64,000 nt of DNA from Promicromonospora citrea (GTDB lineage Bacteria; Actinomycetota; Actinomycetes; Actinomycetales; Cellulomonadaceae): the NCBI RefSeq assembly GCF_013004695.1, contig NZ_JABEMG010000005.1:1-64000 (forward strand). Reading direction: 5' to 3'. Numbering within the stretch: the first letter of the stretch is position 1; each line of letters begins with the position of its first letter. The notes under the pieces are model-generated. The model saw only the letters and a program-made list of their open reading frames with translations. It had not been told where the DNA came from and ran no database searches. Made by a program: the position numbers and the translations under genes. Below, one piece after another: positions 54,046-60,273 of this stretch.

Positions 54046-55638
54046 TCAGACCCCGCTGGCCACCAGCGGGATCAGCGGCACGCCGGGGTGCGCGCGCTCG
54101 AACGCGCGGGCGTGCCAGACGTCGCGCAGCAGCACGAGCGGCGTGCCGTCGCCACGACGCACGACCTCGACGCCCGGGTAGGCGGCCACCGTGTCCAGGT
54201 CGGCCGGGGCGACCTCACGGGCGAGGCCCAGCCCGAGCGTCTCCATCCGGATGGGCGCGGAGAACTCGTGCTCCATACGGAACGTCGCGACCTCGAACTG
54301 CAGGGGGCCGACGGCCGCGAGGATCGGGTTGCCGTCGCCGCGCACCTCCGAGACGAGCACCTGCACCACGCCCTCCTGCTCGAGCTGCGTGATGCCCTTG
54401 CGGAACTGCTTCGACCGCCCCGGGTCGGCGACGCGCGCGGCCGCGAAGTGCTCGGGCGCGAACACCGGCATGGGCGGGAACGCGACCTTGGGGCCGGCCG
54501 GGTCGTACACCGTGTCGCCGACGGCCAGCGAGCTCGCGTTGACCAGGCCGACGACGTCGCCGGGATACGCGTCCTCGACCGTCGACCGCTCCCGCCCGAA
54601 CACCGACAGCGCGTACTTCGTGGCGAACGGCCGCCCGGTGCGCTCGTGGGTCACGACCATGCCGCGCTCGAACCGGCCCGAGCACACGCGCAGGAACGCG
54701 ACGTGGTCGCGGTGGTGCGGGTCCATGCCCGCCTGCATCTTGAACACGAACCCGCTGAACGGCTGGTCGACGTCGCGCGGCGCGCCGGCGACGTCGGGCC
54801 GGGCGCCCGGGGCGGGCGCGAGCGCGACGACGGCGTCCAGGAGCTGGCGGACGCCGATGTTGGCCAGCGCCGCGCCGAACAGCATGGGCGAGGTGGTGCC
54901 GGCCAGGAACGACTCCCGGTCGACGGGGTCGAGGAGCTGCACGCTCTCGACGGCCTCGGTGTGGTCGTCACCCAGCTCGCGTGCGGCGGCGTCGGGGGTC
55001 AGCAGGGTCTCCTCGGCGATCGACGCGCCGCCCGGCGCGCGCCGGTAGGTGCGCACCTCGCCCGAGGCGCGGTCGAGCAGGCCGACGAACCGGCCCGCCT
55101 CGCCGAGCGGCCACGTCAGGGGCGTCGGGCGCAGGTCGATCCGCTCCTCGAGCTCGTCGCACAGCTCGAGCGCCTCGCGGCCGGGCCGGTCCCACTTGTT
55201 CACGAAGGTGATGACGGGGACCCCGCGGCGGCGGCACACCTCGAACAGCTTGAGCGTCTGCGGCTCGAGGCCCTTGGCGGCGTCGAGCAGCATGACGGCG
55301 GCGTCGACGGCGGTCAGGACCCGGTAGGTGTCCTCGGAGAAGTCGGCGTGGCCCGGGGTGTCGAGCAGGTTGATCACGACGTCGCCGTAGGCGAACTGCA
55401 GCGCGGCCGAGGTGATGGAGATACCGCGCTTCTGCTCCATCTCGAGCCAGTCGGACACGACGCCGGCGCGGTTGCCCTTGCCGTGCACGGCGCCCGCCTC
55501 CTCGATGGCGTGCGCGTGCAGCGCGAGGGCCTCGGTGAGGGTCGACTTGCCCGCGTCCGGGTGGGAGATGACGGCGATGCTACGGCGCCGCGCCGCCTCG
55601 GCCGCGACCGGCCGGGCGTCGGAGGTCAGGACGGTCAC
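54046..55638 (-). CDS. prfC: Peptide chain release factor 3
   Basis: 530 residues from GTG 55638, matching E. coli RF3 (529). A GTG at 55683 would add a 15-residue non-family tail; TATCGT at 55652-55647 supports the shorter start. GTPase motifs: SHPDAGKSTLTE (P-loop), DTPGHADFSEDTYR (G3), FVNKWDRPGR (G4-type NKxD). EMEQKRGISIT is the switch I region. RF3 recycles RF1/RF2 after peptide release. Good match throughout to the C-terminus. Confidence 0.95.
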   Translation of the reverse strand: MTVLTSDARPVAAEAARRRSIAVISHPDAGKSTLTEALALHAHAIEEAGAVHGKGNRAGVVSDWLEMEQKRGISITSAALQFAYGDVVINLLDTPGHADFSEDTYRVLTAVDAAVMLLDAAKGLEPQTLKLFEVCRRRGVPVITFVNKWDRPGREALELCDELEERIDLRPTPLTWPLGEAGRFVGLLDRASGEVRTYRRAPGGASIAEETLLTPDAAARELGDDHTEAVESVQLLDPVDRESFLAGTTSPMLFGAALANIGVRQLLDAVVALAPAPGARPDVAGAPRDVDQPFSGFVFKMQAGMDPHHRDHVAFLRVCSGRFERGMVVTHERTGRPFATKYALSVFGRERSTVEDAYPGDVVGLVNASSLAVGDTVYDPAGPKVAFPPMPVFAPEHFAAARVADPGRSKQFRKGITQLEQEGVVQVLVSEVRGDGNPILAAVGPLQFEVATFRMEHEFSAPIRMETLGLGLAREVAPADLDTVAAYPGVEVVRRGDGTPLVLLRDVWHARAFERAHPGVPLIPLVASGV

Positions 55639-55686
55639 GTCGGGCAACGATACCGGGCGCCGGGCGGCCGGCACGCGATTCACTCG

Positions 55687-55708
55687 GTGTATACACGGGG
55701 TGTATAGT
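55687..55708 (+). promoter_or_regulatory. PadR-type operator/promoter
   Basis: GTGTATACAC palindrome at 55687-55696, followed by a second half-site GTGTATA; TATAGT at 55703-55708 is the -10, seven bases before ATG 55716, giving a leaderless transcript. The arrangement fits PadR autorepression of the padR-ABC operon. Confidence 0.7.
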
Positions 55709-55715
55709 GCCGGGC

Positions 55716-56237
55716 ATGAGTGTTGGACGCGCCCTCCTGGGGCTCCTCGAGAACGGTCCCCGCCACGGGTACGACCTCAAGCGGTCCTACGACGAGCGGT
55801 TCGGCACCGACCGGCCGCTCGCCTACGGGCAGGTGTACTCGACGCTCGCCCGGCTGCTGAGGAACGGCTTCGTCGAGGTCGAGTCGGAGCCGGGAGCCGG
55901 CCCCGAGCGCAAGCGGTACGCGATCACGGAGGCCGGGGTGGCCGACGTCGCGTCGTGGCTCGCCCAGCCGGAGAAGCCGGAGCCGTACCTGCAGAGCACG
56001 CTCTACACCAAGGTGGTGCTCGCCCTGCTCACGGGCAACGACGCCACCACGGTGCTCGACACCCAGCGCGCCGAGCACCTGCGGCTCATGCGGGAGCTGA
56101 CGCGCCGCAAGGAGACGGGCGACCTCGCCGACCAGCTCGTCTGCGACCACGCCCTGTTCCACCTCGAGGCGGACCTGCGCTGGCTCGAGCTGACCGCCGC
56201 ACGCGTGCAGCAGCTCGCCGCGCACGTCCGCCCGTGA
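55716..56237 (+). CDS. PadR-family regulator
   Basis: 173 residues from ATG 55716. Winged HTH: RALLGLLENGPRHGYDLKRSYDE, LAYGQVYSTLARLLRNGFVE, GPERKRYAITEAG; then a helical C-terminal dimer domain. It overlaps upstream of the ABC exporter and is separated from that ATPase by 29 bp, so it heads the operon. PadR proteins repress drug-efflux or stress genes and are released by the compound itself. Confidence 0.92.
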   Translation: MSVGRALLGLLENGPRHGYDLKRSYDERFGTDRPLAYGQVYSTLARLLRNGFVEVESEPGAGPERKRYAITEAGVADVASWLAQPEKPEPYLQSTLYTKVVLALLTGNDATTVLDTQRAEHLRLMRELTRRKETGDLADQLVCDHALFHLEADLRWLELTAARVQQLAAHVRP

Positions 56238-56266
56238 CCCCGCCGTCCCCGACCCAGGAGACTCCC

Positions 56267-56950
56267 GTGCCCACCGAACCCCTGCTCGTCGCCGAGCACC
56301 TCAGGCTCTCGTTCGGCGCCACGACGGCGCTCGAGGACGCGTCCGTCGCCGTCCACGCGGGCGAGGTGCTCGCCCTCATGGGCCCGTCCGGGTCCGGCAA
56401 GTCCACCCTGCTGCACTGCCTGGGCGGCATCCTGCACCCCGACGCCGGCCGCGTCACCTACGCCGGGCGCGACCTGACCGCCATGCACGACAGCGAGCGC
56501 AGCGCGCTGCGCCGCTCGGAGCTCGGGTTCGTGTTCCAGTTCGGCCAGCTCGTCCCCGAGCTCACGTGCCTGGAGAACGTGGCCCTGCCGCTGCGGCTCA
56601 ACGGGGCGAGCCGACGCGCCGCGCACCGCAGCGCCTCGGCGTGGCTCGAGCGGCTCGAGGTGCTCGACGTGGCGGCCAAGCGCCCCGGCCAGGTCTCGGG
56701 CGGTCAGGGCCAGCGCGTCGCGGTCGCCCGCGCGCTCGTGACCCGGCCCCGCGTCGTCTTCGCCGACGAGCCGACCGGCGCCCTGGACTCCCTCAACGGC
56801 GAGCGTGTCATGCAGCTCTTCGTCGCGGCCGCCCGCGAGACCGGCGCCGCCGTCGTGCTCGTCACGCACGAGGCGCGGGTCGCCGCCTACTCGGACCGCG
56901 AGGCCGTGGTGCGCGACGGCCGCGTGCGGACCGTGGAGTACGCCCGGTGA
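56267..56950 (+). CDS. ABC transporter ATP-binding protein, MacB/LolD type
   Basis: 227 residues from GTG 56267, which has AGGAG six bases upstream; GTG 56234 overlapping the PadR stop would add an unconserved leader. Walker A GPSGSGKST at about 43-51, signature VSGGQGQR, Walker B VVFADEPTGALDS, H-loop THE. The ATPase overlaps the next permease by 4 bp. Part of the PadR-regulated exporter. Confidence 0.92.
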   Translation: MPTEPLLVAEHLRLSFGATTALEDASVAVHAGEVLALMGPSGSGKSTLLHCLGGILHPDAGRVTYAGRDLTAMHDSERSALRRSELGFVFQFGQLVPELTCLENVALPLRLNGASRRAAHRSASAWLERLEVLDVAAKRPGQVSGGQGQRVAVARALVTRPRVVFADEPTGALDSLNGERVMQLFVAAARETGAAVVLVTHEARVAAYSDREAVVRDGRVRTVEYAR

Positions 56951-59232
56951 CGGGGTGGGTCGCCGACCTGGCCCTCGGCGTGCGGCTGGGCGTCAGCGGC
57001 GGGCGCTCGGGGTGGGTGCGGCTCGCGCTGATCTCCCTCGGTGTCGGACTGGGCGTGGCGATGCTGCTGGTCGCGGCGTCGGCGCCCGCCGTCCTCGACG
57101 CCCGCGCCGACCGCGCGGCCGAGCGGTGGGTGAACAGCGACCAGGTGATCGAGCCGGGTGCGCCCACGCTGCTGACGCTGCCCGTGCGCTCGATGCACCG
57201 GGGCGAGGCGATCGAGGGCAGGCTGCTGCAGCCCGAGTCGCCGGACGCGCCGCTGCCGCCCGGTGTCGACCGGCAGCTCGCACCCGGCGAGGTCGTGCTC
57301 TCCCCCGCCCTGGAGCGGCTGCTCGCCTCGCCCGACGGCGCGGCGCTGCGCGGGCGCTGGGGCGAGCAGACCGTCGGCACCATCGGGCCGGAGGGCCTCA
57401 CGGGCCCGGACGAGCTCACCTTCTACCTCGGCACGGACCGGCTCACGGGCGAGACCGCCGTCCGGATCAGCTCCTTCGGCGGCGACCAGCAGCCCGAGGA
57501 GGGCGTGAGCCCCGTCATGGTGCTGCTCGCGCTGGTCGGCATCGTGGTGCTGCTGCTGCCCGTCGGCATCTTCGTCGCCACGGCGGTGCGGTTCGGCAGC
57601 GAGGCGCGGGACCGGCGCCTGGCCGCGCTGCGGCTGGTCGGGGCCGACGCCCGGACGACCCGCCGGGTCGCGGCGGGCGAGACGCTCACGGGCGCGGTGC
57701 TCGGCCTCGGCGTCGGGGCGCTCGTCTGGCTGCTCGTGAGCCGCGTCGCCGGCACGCTCGTCCCGGACTCCCTGAGCTTCTACCCCGCCGACGTCCGCCC
57801 GGCGCCCGCGCTCGTCGGGCTCGTGGTGGTGCTCGTGCCGCTGACGACGGTGCTGGTCACGCTCTCCGCGCTGCGCCAGGTCGTGGTGGAGCCGCTCGGC
57901 GTCGTCCGGCGCAGCGGCGCGCGCAGGCGGCGGCTGTGGTGGCGGCTGCTGTTCCCGCTGGCCGGCCTCGCGCTGCTGCACCCGCTGGTCACCGGGCTCG
58001 ACACCGCCATGGGTACCCAGGTCTCGATCGCCGCGGGCCTGGTCCTGCTGCTGACCGGCGTCGCGCTGGTGCTGCCGTGGCTCGTGGAGGCCACCGTGCA
58101 CCGGCTGGGCAACGGCCCGGTGGCGTGGGACCTCGCGGTGCGCCGCCTCCAGCTCGACAGCGGCACCGCCGTGCGCGCCGTGTCCGGCGTCGCGGTCTCG
58201 GTCGCGGGGCTGATCGCCCTGCAGGGGCTCGTGGGCGCGATCGGCGCCCTGACGGCGGGGGCCGCCGCGGACACGCGGACGTACCAGGCGAGCGTGCTGG
58301 ACATCTTCCCGGAGGACCAGGCGGGCGGCGACCCGGCGGGCACCTGGACGCGCGCCCTGTCCGCCGCTCCTGGCGTGACCGACGTCGGCGCGCTGACCTC
58401 GATCGGGGCCGAGCCGACCGGTGGCGCGCCCGAGGCCGTCGTCGAGTCCGGCCCGTGCGCCGTGCTCGCCCAGGAGGCGCAGGTCGGCGCGTGCAGGGAC
58501 GGCGACGTCTTCGTCGTCGTGCCCGAGGGCGCCGTGGCACCGCCCGCGGGCAGCGCCTGGACGCTGGGCGACGGGGTGCGGTGGACGCTGCCGGACACCG
58601 CGCGGCCGGTCGCGCCGAACCAGGGCAGCGTGTCCGCCCTCAACGGCGGCGGGCCGCCGCGGATCCTGCTCACGCCCGCGGCCCTGGGCGGTCTGCGGCC
58701 CGACGTCGTCGCCGTGACGACGTACGCGACGCTCGACCCCGCCGTGCCCGACGCGCTCGACCACCTGCGGACCGCGGCCGCGCAGGTCGACCCGCGGGCG
58801 TACGCGTCGTCGATCGCGCAGCAGGGCATCGCCTCCGCGCTCGTCACGATGCGGCAGGTGCTGCTGGTCGGCACCGTGGCGCTGCTGGTCATGGTGGGGG
58901 CGAGCCTGCTGGTCAACGTGCTGGAGCAGCTCCGCGAGCGCCGCAGGCTGCTCGCCGCGCTGGTCGCGGTCGGCACGCGCCGCCGCACCCTGAGCGGGTC
59001 GGTGCTCGTGCAGGTCGCGGTGCCCGTCGTGCTGGGTCTCGGCCTCGCCGTCCTCACGGGCAGCGTGCTCGCGCTCGGCCTGCAGACGGCGGTCGACGCC
59101 CCGCTCACGTTCGACCGGGTGGGGGTCGGCGCGACGTCGGGCGTCGCCGCGGTCGTGGTGCTGCTCACGACCGCGGCCGGGCTGCCGCTGCTGTGGCGGC
59201 TGACGCGGCCGGAGGGCCTGCGCACGGAGTAG
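56947..59232 (+). CDS. FtsX-like ABC transporter permease, large
   Basis: 761 residues from GTG 56947 (GTGA overlap). Two FtsX/MacB-type core blocks: RLAALRLVGADARTTRRVA after the first periplasmic domain, and RRLLAALVAVGTRRRTLSG near the C-terminus. A transmembrane helix at about 15-35, then large extracytoplasmic regions (about 60-185 and 430-650). Forms an exporter with the preceding ATPase. Its nearness to an Erm gene suggests macrolide or other antibiotic export; that is inference. Confidence 0.9.
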   Translation: MTGWVADLALGVRLGVSGGRSGWVRLALISLGVGLGVAMLLVAASAPAVLDARADRAAERWVNSDQVIEPGAPTLLTLPVRSMHRGEAIEGRLLQPESPDAPLPPGVDRQLAPGEVVLSPALERLLASPDGAALRGRWGEQTVGTIGPEGLTGPDELTFYLGTDRLTGETAVRISSFGGDQQPEEGVSPVMVLLALVGIVVLLLPVGIFVATAVRFGSEARDRRLAALRLVGADARTTRRVAAGETLTGAVLGLGVGALVWLLVSRVAGTLVPDSLSFYPADVRPAPALVGLVVVLVPLTTVLVTLSALRQVVVEPLGVVRRSGARRRRLWWRLLFPLAGLALLHPLVTGLDTAMGTQVSIAAGLVLLLTGVALVLPWLVEATVHRLGNGPVAWDLAVRRLQLDSGTAVRAVSGVAVSVAGLIALQGLVGAIGALTAGAAADTRTYQASVLDIFPEDQAGGDPAGTWTRALSAAPGVTDVGALTSIGAEPTGGAPEAVVESGPCAVLAQEAQVGACRDGDVFVVVPEGAVAPPAGSAWTLGDGVRWTLPDTARPVAPNQGSVSALNGGGPPRILLTPAALGGLRPDVVAVTTYATLDPAVPDALDHLRTAAAQVDPRAYASSIAQQGIASALVTMRQVLLVGTVALLVMVGASLLVNVLEQLRERRRLLAALVAVGTRRRTLSGSVLVQVAVPVVLGLGLAVLTGSVLALGLQTAVDAPLTFDRVGVGATSGVAAVVVLLTTAAGLPLLWRLTRPEGLRTE

Positions 59233-59237
59233 GACCG

Positions 59238-59279
59238 GCGCGCGGCGGCCTGGCTCGAAAAAGCCTGGCCGCCGCGCGC
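59238..59279. terminator. Hairpin terminator after the ABC permease
   Basis: Stem of 18 bp with one T-T mismatch (59238-59255 with 59262-59279), six-nt loop. It begins 6 bp after the permease stop and ends 11 bp before the Erm promoter's -10, isolating the two units. Its loop and 3' arm overlap the region where the Erm promoter's upstream elements should be. Confidence 0.75.
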
Positions 59280-59289
59280 GCCCGCCCCC

Positions 59290-59295
59290 TAGGGT
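59290..59295 (+). promoter_or_regulatory. -10 element of the Erm leader transcript
   Basis: TAGGGT at 59290-59295 is nine bases before ATG 59305 of the leader ORF, fitting a leaderless leader transcript. No consensus -35 is visible 17 bp upstream (59267-59272 is G+C-rich), but a run of five A lies at 59258-59262, just ahead of that place, as in promoters dependent on WhiB7; this link is speculative. Confidence 0.45.
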
Positions 59296-59304
59296 CGCCT
59301 CCGT

Positions 59305-59340
59305 ATGAACGCCATGATCAGGGAGCGTTCCGCCCGCTAG
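59305..59340 (+). CDS. Erm leader peptide (upstream ORF)
   Basis: Eleven codons, MNAMIRERSAR, ending in TAG at 59338-59340. It starts at the predicted transcript start, and its codons 8-10 coincide with arm 1 of the attenuator (59325-59333). Arg-rich leader peptides with R-x-R are used in Erm induction: a macrolide-bound ribosome stalls there. Too short for ORF callers; supported by position and by the alternative pairings that follow. Confidence 0.6.
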   Translation: MNAMIRERSAR

Positions 59341-59404
59341 CGGCGCGGAACGCACACCACACCCAGCGCGTGCTCCGCGCCGCCGGCATCCGCCGGGCGG
59401 CGCG
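59325..59404 (+). promoter_or_regulatory. Attenuator with alternative 1:2, 2:3 and 3:4 pairings
   Basis: Arm 1 59325-59333 pairs with arm 2 59345-59353 (9 bp). Arm 2 region 59341-59349 pairs instead with arm 3 59374-59382 (9 bp). Arm 3 59376-59384 pairs with arm 4 59396-59404 (9 bp, plus 3 inner bp). All are perfect Watson-Crick. When a ribosome stalls on the leader, arm 1 is hidden and 2:3 forms, removing 3:4. The Erm Shine-Dalgarno (TGGAG, 59438) is outside arm 4, so transcriptional attenuation by 3:4 seems likelier than RBS masking. A small hairpin (59417-59422/59432-59437) sits next to the ribosome site. Confidence 0.7.
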
Positions 59405-59448
59405 TTCGTGCTGCCCGGATTCCTGCCCGACGAATCCTGGAGCACCCG

Positions 59449-60273
59449 ATGACACGCACCCGTCCCTCCCGTCCGCCCGCGGGCGGCGCCCACGAGCTGG
59501 GCCAGAACCTGCTGGTCGACCAGCAGGTGGTCGACCGCGTGGTCGACCTCGTCCCCGACACGCCCCGACCGCTCGTCGAGTGGGCGGCGGGCCGCGGCGC
59601 CGTGACCGTCCCCCTGGCCCGGCTGGGCCGCCCCGTCGAGGCCGTCGAGATCGACGAGCGCTCCGCAGAGCGGCTGAGCCGGGTCGTCCCCGGCAACGTC
59701 ACGGTGACGCGGGGCGACATCCTGCGGCACGCGCCGCCGGCCGAGGCCTACGACCTCGTCTGCAACGTCCCGTTCCACCTCACGACCCCCGTCCTGCGCC
59801 GTCTGTTCACGCTGCCCGGCTGGCAGCGCGCCGTGCTCGTGGTGCAGTGGGAGGTCGCGCGCAAGCGCGCCGCCGTGGGCGGCGCGACCCTGCTCACGGC
59901 CCAGTGGTGGCCGTGGTTCGCCCCGCGGCTCGACCGTCGCGTCCCCGCGTCCGCGTTCCGCCCCCGCCCGAGCGTCGACGCCGGGCTGCTCGTGCTCGAC
60001 CGGCGCACCGAGCCGCTGCTGCCCACCGGGCAGCAGCGCGACTACCAGCGGTTCGCCGCCGCCGTCTTCACCGGACCGGGGCGTGGGCTGCCCGACATCC
60101 TCGTGCGGCAAGGCCTGGACCGGGGCGACGTGCGCCGCTGGGCGCGCGAGCACCGGGTACGGCCCGACGCGCTGCCCCGTGACCTCGGCGCGCCCGCCTG
60201 GGTGGCGGCGTACGGGCTGACCCGGTCCGAGCGGGGTCAGGAGCGCGCAGGGCTCCGGCGGTCGGCCCGGTAG
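59449..60273 (+). CDS. erm: Erm-type 23S rRNA adenine-N6 methyltransferase
   Basis: 274 residues. HELGQNLLVDQQVVDRVVDLV at the start, motif I VEWAAGRGAVTVPLA (E/G...AGxGxxT), acidic VEAVEIDERSAERL, and NVPFHLTTPVLRRLF (N-x-P-F, the adenine-binding motif). The block VARKRAAVGGATLLTAQWWPWF is characteristic of actinobacterial Erm proteins, as distinct from KsgA. Methylation of A2058 (E. coli numbering) gives macrolide-lincosamide-streptogramin B resistance. Regulated by the leader attenuator. An RNase-type KsgA role is unlikely given the missing NIPY pattern and the leader. Confidence 0.88.
   Translation: MTRTRPSRPPAGGAHELGQNLLVDQQVVDRVVDLVPDTPRPLVEWAAGRGAVTVPLARLGRPVEAVEIDERSAERLSRVVPGNVTVTRGDILRHAPPAEAYDLVCNVPFHLTTPVLRRLFTLPGWQRAVLVVQWEVARKRAAVGGATLLTAQWWPWFAPRLDRRVPASAFRPRPSVDAGLLVLDRRTEPLLPTGQQRDYQRFAAAVFTGPGRGLPDILVRQGLDRGDVRRWAREHRVRPDALPRDLGAPAWVAAYGLTRSERGQERAGLRRSAR

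Follow-up and report, generated by a model that had tools for sequence, protein, structure and literature searches.

A probable WhiB7-linked leader-peptide attenuator upstream of erm in Promicromonospora citrea, and its apparent relatives before other actinomycete resistance genes

We suggest that the erm gene of the soil bacterium Promicromonospora citrea analyzed here is very probably governed by a macrolide- or ketolide-inducible translational attenuator operating under WhiB7-type transcription. The gene lies in a stretch of 64,000 nucleotides (assembly GCF_013004695.1, contig NZ_JABEMG010000005.1, positions 1 to 64,000 of the forward strand), referred to here as the window, and upstream of it we observe a leader with an R-X-R motif, a series of pairing arms, two mutually exclusive folds, a match to a known promoter type, conservation of this arrangement and covariation of its arms. 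An original prediction, made from the letters of the DNA alone, had laid out an 11-codon leader ORF and four pairing arms within 59290-59448, and every coordinate of that layout proved correct when the sequence was re-read, including those of the ORF itself, which runs from an ATG at 59305 to a TAG stop codon at 59338-59340 and encodes the 11 residues MNAMIRERSAR. The features of the full arrangement are as follows.

59257-59262, + strand: WhiB7/WblC box GAAAAA (consensus GAAAWY), by pattern match to the consensus in PMC7157823
59266-59271, + strand: -35 element TGGCCG (TKGMNN), 3 bp past the WhiB7 box, by sequence and the consensus in PMC7157823
59290-59295, + strand: -10 element TAGGGT, 18 bp from the -35; kept in 13 related loci, in which the -35/-10 spacer is not kept
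59305-59340, + strand: leader ORF MNAMIRERSAR with its stop codon, kept in a sister genus and in all 12 Promicromonospora genomes that carry erm
59320-59328, + strand: R6-E7-R8 codons, where arrest is predicted with the P site at E7 and the A site at R8, by +X+ motif and ErmDL codon index
59325-59336, + strand: arm 1, predicted to lie beneath a ribosome stalled at E7 (folding; 13 loci vary in only one of its 12 columns)
59340-59353, + strand: arm 2, partner of arm 1 or arm 3, its first base completing the leader stop codon (no variation in its 14 columns; the 2:3 helix covaries across actinomycetes)
59374-59387, + strand: arm 3, partner of arm 2 or arm 4 (folding and conservation)
59392-59404, + strand: arm 4, partner of arm 3 or arm 5 (folding)
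59408-59422, + strand: arm 5, partner of arm 4 or arm 6 (folding; 59408-59418 invariant in 13 loci)
59432-59445, + strand: arm 6, including the erm Shine-Dalgarno GGAG at 59439-59442 (paired to arm 5 when the RNA is free)
59449-60273, + strand: erm, predicted 23S rRNA (A2058-N6) methyltransferase, 274 aa (NF000499 and Erm(38) structure match)

Judged by its sequence, the ORF at 59449-60273 encodes an Erm 23S rRNA methyltransferase, for which A2058 methylation and MLS resistance are predicted. Its product scores 224.1 bits against the Erm model NF000499 (cut-off 212) and 112.8 bits against the KsgA model, under the KsgA cut-off of 171; the top-scoring Erm subfamily models are Erm(46), Erm(55) and Erm(38), and the closest solved structure is that of Erm(38) (7f8a, E 9e-69). 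An erm gene is present in 12 of 13 Promicromonospora genomes, the window genome counted, and the relatives share 75-82% identity. One species of the genus (L009) has an Erm with an N-terminal extension of tandem SAPTSR-like repeats. Immediately adjoining erm on its upstream side, and on the same strand, are genes for an ABC-transporter ATPase and an FtsX-like permease (window 55412-59232).

Folding places all three helices of the original prediction where it had put them, with 1:2 (59325-59333/59345-59353) and 3:4 (59376-59384/59396-59404) at the predicted 9 bp, each with a further 3 bp inside, whereas 2:3 (59340-59349/59374-59383) has 10 bp and not 9. Helices 1:2 and 3:4 exclude 2:3 and are excluded by it, as in attenuators of the ermC type. 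The segment 59302-59470 folds at -77.7 kcal/mol (z = -3.0 relative to dinucleotide shuffles), a stability equaled by none of 200 shuffles. Single 9-bp stems are cheap in GC-rich DNA, and hence conservation is the more useful evidence; the outer 5 pairs of 5:6 are unvarying in 13 loci. In the folding models, the free RNA adopts 1:2, 3:4 and 5:6, and when it is masked to ~59339 by a ribosome at codon 7 it adopts 2:3 together with an alternative 4:5 hairpin (59393-59403/59408-59418; 11 bp, -23.7 kcal/mol alone). The same switch from 1:2 and 3:4 to 2:3 and 4:5 is found in 13 of 13 related sequences, with pairing probabilities of 0.62-1.0 for 1:2 in the free state and of 0.79-1.0 for 2:3 and 0.73-1.0 for 4:5 in the stalled state. 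This agrees with the earlier claim that stalling conceals arm 1, leaves arm 2 available to arm 3 and blocks 3:4. The attenuator logic originally proposed holds for arms 1 to 4; it had listed neither arms 5 and 6 nor the alternative 4:5 hairpin, and had overlooked the R-X-R motif as well as the WhiB7-type promoter. Indeed, according to the models, blocking 3:4 alone would expose no erm start, and the output step would reside in the 5:6 hairpin, which contains the Shine-Dalgarno, and in the 4:5 pairing that competes with it.

Arrest, the identity of the drug, WhiB7 binding, Shine-Dalgarno release in the cell and induction itself are steps that we infer, and we would set them out as follows. WhiB7, acting at GAAAAA, would give rise to a transcript beginning 2-3 nt ahead of the leader AUG. 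If no drug is present, the leader would be translated and released, and the RNA would settle into 1:2, 3:4 and 5:6, with the Shine-Dalgarno kept in 5:6. When a macrolide or ketolide occupies the exit tunnel, the ribosome would arrest with Glu7 in its P site because, we propose, Arg8-tRNA cannot react past Arg6. The arrested ribosome would cover the RNA up to ~59338-59340 and mask arm 1, upon which arm 2 would pair with arm 3 and arm 4 with arm 5, leaving arm 6 free and erm open to translation. A2058 methylation would then terminate induction.

Release of the Shine-Dalgarno upon stalling is plausible in the models. For the window, opening the erm start is predicted to cost 5.7 kcal/mol in the free RNA but 1.9 kcal/mol in the stalled one. 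Of 66 loci, 62 show such a gain, and the mean gain is 3.8 kcal/mol. Shuffles of 12 of the 66 loci yield mean gains of -0.6 to 4.2, and the gain is not distinct from the locus's own shuffles in 4 of these 12; for the window, the shuffles average 0.6 and 3 of 60 attain the real value. The opening cost was adopted after a first measure, the unpaired probability of the Shine-Dalgarno in free versus stalled RNA, showed no separation from shuffles over the 66 loci (12% vs 17% of cases), and of the two measures only the opening cost differs from shuffles. When 15-20 nt of erm coding sequence are added, the modelled stalled RNA pairs the Shine-Dalgarno again, and release hence probably depends on co-transcriptional timing.

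Stalling at the leader might instead, or alongside Shine-Dalgarno release, block a transcription terminator, in the manner of ermK and tlrA. We consider this unlikely for the window element, even though tlrA/ermSF of Streptomyces fradiae is reported, in work cited by PMC8546547 and PMC8274638, to be under both transcriptional (Kelemen 1994) and translational (Kamimiya and Weisblum 1988) attenuation, terminators are used by lmrC and other actinomycete ABC-F genes (PMC8546547, PMC12421871), and the 3:4 and 4:5 hairpins are GC-rich. A search of 59200-59500 for an intrinsic terminator, defined as a hairpin followed by a U-run (a definition that U-poor actinomycete terminators would escape), returned none, and for this reason translational attenuation is preferred to termination. 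Furthermore, the last conserved arm covers the Shine-Dalgarno, and the 4:5 hairpin, which is the nearest to a short U/C tract, forms when the ribosome is stalled and not when the RNA is free.

The original prediction had regarded MNAMIRERSAR as unfamiliar and its stall specificity as possibly new. This part of the prediction is not supported. The leader carries the known macrolide/ketolide +X+ (Arg-X-Arg) motif at codons 6-8, the codons at which ErmDL, with Arg6-Leu7-Arg8, arrests while codon 7 occupies the P site (PMC8298421), and R6-E7-R8 conforms to the definition of such leaders, R/K-X-R/K placed early in a short ORF before a macrolide-resistance gene; the notion of an unknown stall class was dropped on these grounds. 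The C-terminal part MI[R/K][E/Q]RSAR is present in 12 of 12 erm-bearing Promicromonospora genomes, with Q7 and K6 as the genus variants of the motif. The closest erm outside the genus (L092, in another genus of the family) has the leader MSMNAMIRLRSAR, and this sister-genus leader corresponds to MIRLRSAR, that is, to the canonical RLR with Leu at position 7. Short leaders precede ~70 more distant actinobacterial erm genes, with R-X-R in nearly all of them (for instance MSVTYIRLRIT, MCASAFTRTRRA and MGNCCMTMFVRIRRR). Glu or Gln at position X appears unusual. The N-terminal part is more variable. The window leader has a further in-frame ATG at 59314, which would yield MIRERSAR, and the leaders of some Promicromonospora bear additional N-terminal Met-Asn/Met-Thr repeats. 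Upstream of erm in L004, L005, L006, L007 and L009, the repeat-extended N-terminus contains multiple in-frame ATGs (e.g. MNAMTMNATMNAMIRERSAR), such that, in a single genus, the start codon and R-X-R lie 6 to 15 codons apart.

Because X is Glu or Gln and the residues preceding the motif are unlike those of ErmDL, the stall signal could also be a different one, either another drug of the tunnel or peptidyl-transferase center or general slow translation. Residues 4 and 5, which matter more than the RLR motif for ErmDL arrest with erythromycin (PMC8298421), are Met-Ile here, and the repeats lengthen the leader N-terminus in some species. We nevertheless hold a different signal to be quite unlikely, given that the controlled gene is an Erm, whose product protects from MLS drugs, and that the sole substitution at Arg6 or Arg8 across the genus is R6 to K, Lys being the only residue tolerated in place of either Arg when ErmDL is challenged with telithromycin (PMC8298421). 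The reading that we favor remains arrest by a macrolide or ketolide. We also note that the leaders of L098, L102 and L105 (same family, genus g4) end in ...VARPWAA, with Trp replacing the second Arg of R-X-R; this Arg-to-Trp change is reported to relieve telithromycin arrest of ErmDL, and sister species retain RPR. From these sequences, a loss or change of inducer in the three leaders is possible.

The original prediction had named homologues devoid of conserved leader or pairing as evidence against itself, and a check of the homologues found both to be conserved. Across 13 related loci, 60 of 63 columns are invariant in the arms versus 13 of 37 in the linkers (Fisher p ~8e-11), and both 1:2 and 2:3 have at least 6 bp in 95% of 84 actinobacterial erm leaders, versus 31% of shuffles. 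Within Promicromonospora the arms yield no covariation, which is uninformative because they are invariant. A joint MAFFT alignment of the genus with other genera left the arms out of register and was dropped; for that reason, a covariance model (R1) was made from 25 erm leaders, with Promicromonospora left out, and then used to find the window element. This constitutes an independent test, and R1 recovers the element at 59341-59424 with 28.3 bits and an E-value of 0.003 (R1 E-values are rough). In an alignment of 90 elements, which is biased toward the model structure and against which slid controls give lower scores, 93% of cells are paired versus 88% in shuffles, and 2:3 and 4:5 accumulate 48 two-sided changes versus 9.0 expected from shuffles, a count reached by 0 of 500 shuffles. 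The covariation includes the leader stop codon: UAG leaders have AGCGGCGG paired with CCGCCGCU, and UGA leaders have GACGGCGG paired with CCGCCGUC.

WhiB7 probably acts on erm too, at the level of transcription. The WblC (WhiB7) promoters of Streptomyces follow GAAAWY-N3-TKGMNN-N16-19-TANNNT, with a start 7-8 nt downstream (PMC7157823), and window 59257-59295 reads GAAAAA-GCC-TGGCCG-18 bp-TAGGGT, a match to this Streptomyces-derived consensus in which the box departs from GAAAWY at its final base alone. Two sites in the genome match the strict pattern, this one and one before a WhiB gene whose product bears an AT-hook at its C-terminus (whiB7), and the reversed pattern, used as a control, has none. 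From the position of the -10 element, transcription would be expected to start at ~59302-59303, 2-3 nt ahead of the AUG, making the leader nearly leaderless; a comparable promoter and leader arrangement is found in most of the 84 erm loci. That WhiB7 transcription alone is the main control, with leader and hairpins of little regulatory effect, we regard as very improbable, since, excellent as the promoter match is (one of two genome-wide), the arms and R-X-R codons are much better conserved than the linkers and promoter spacer, arms 2 and 3 covary class-wide, and 26 of 35 element loci have no strict WhiB7 promoter match.

Two further observations concern this region and its presumed regulator. 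The window genome encodes two WhiB proteins with AT-hooks (RGRP), at G000:C201:35143-35289 and C112:34044-34187 (L109 and L110), and the strict WhiB7 promoter precedes the first only. A near-perfect large inverted repeat at window 59238-59279 (GCGCGCGGCGGCCTGGCT cgaaaa AGCCTGGCCGCCGCGCGC), absent from the upstream sequences of relatives, overlaps the WhiB7 box and the -35 element and is perhaps a terminator for the FtsX-type permease gene that lies upstream, overlying the erm promoter.

We lean towards the view that the window element is one member of an RNA family that is undescribed and spread across the actinomycetes. Its members would be WhiB7-linked, nearly leaderless leader-peptide switches that evolution has put before unrelated genes for MLS resistance (Erm, ABC-F, lincosamide nucleotidyltransferase, LmrA-type and other DHA2 efflux), with the leader peptide altered for each drug and the RNA switch retained. 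A search of 395 actinomycete genomes with R1 returned 36 places in 34 genomes, followed by 14 Erm genes, 5 ABC-F ribosomal-protection genes, 1 lincosamide nucleotidyltransferase (Lnu), 6 LmrA-like lincomycin efflux genes, 8 other DHA2-type efflux genes and 2 genes of no determined class (representatives classified via NCBIfam, the others by translated likeness to the representatives). The Erm genes are partly expected, because R1 was trained on erm leaders; the non-Erm matches are not. The strict WhiB7 promoter, which lies outside the R1 model, precedes 9 of 35 matches versus 0 of 13,049 random positions. At the non-Erm loci (L121, L123, L124, L126, L129-L132, L134, L135, L137, L138, L140-L142, L145-L148), leader peptides vary with gene class, examples being MRPWTRA, MCAIAVTDLRLS, ...AVTRTLR and MPLAKELAAL. 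The window genome itself has a second copy at G000:C219:22571-22702 (L144:3072-3203, minus strand), before an LmrA-like MFS efflux gene that scores 459 bits against the Lmr(A) model, and its leader MSGASSSAACAAVTRTSR carries R-T-S-R instead of R-X-R. No Rfam 15 family matches the element above its gathering score when covariance models are compared, and we found no earlier account of a shared actinomycete element in open-access full texts. Going by these sequences, the same type of switch seems to stand before several kinds of resistance gene, as one conserved ribosome-reading sensor serving many mechanisms, and the RNA family shared among them is apparently undescribed so far.

Inducible Erm leaders have been known since the 1980s-90s in ermSF/tlrA and ermSV of Streptomyces, which, likened here by description, resemble the window in pairing an actinomycete Erm with a leader-based attenuator. 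In ermC/ermCL and ermA, a stalled ribosome hides arm 1, arm 2 pairs with arm 3 and the Shine-Dalgarno is freed. The window element has this translational attenuator logic in common with them, and differs from their IFVI and IAVV leader classes in its R-X-R motif, its six arms and its additional 4:5 anti-sequester step. The ermD/ermDL system of Bacillus is alike in its R-X-R at leader codons 6-8, its Erm output and its induction via the leader; in contrast to its RLR, position X is Glu in the window and Gln in others, the stop-to-start distance is 108 nt where the ermD intergenic region measures 276 nt, and transcription is of WhiB7 type and nearly leaderless. The Bacillus subtilis tlrB (yxjB) leader MIIQFIRYR likewise combines R-X-R with a Shine-Dalgarno-sequestering hairpin (PMC6851288), but tlrB encodes another methyltransferase, has a terminator and needs NusG pausing. 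Promoters of the WblC/WhiB7 regulon, and that of the whiB7 uORF, resemble the window in having a GAAAWY box 3 bp before the -35 and a TANNNT -10 (PMC7157823), whereas the window promoter would feed a second, drug-specific attenuator. Attenuated, ribosome-mediated actinomycete ABC-F genes with other leaders are already established (PMC8546547, PMC12421871), as are inducible R-X-R leaders of Erm and related genes (ermD, tlrB) and attenuated actinomycete erm genes (ermSF/tlrA). What is new is the R-E/Q-R leader series, the six-arm layout with WhiB7-type, nearly leaderless transcription, and evidence suggestive of a single covarying RNA family that spans several MLS-resistance classes.

Actinomycetes are the source of MLS drugs and of many resistance genes, and their inducible MLS resistance has so far been studied one gene at a time. 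If our proposal is true, one conserved, covarying element would be common to methylation, ribosome protection, inactivation and efflux, and would make it possible to study directly the tuning of drug specificity by leader peptides while the switch stays fixed. The natural series from RLR to RER, RQR and KER, in and beside one genus, offers a ready test of the residues tolerated at position X, and the coupling to WhiB7 would amount to a two-key control that pairs a general alarm with a specific drug.
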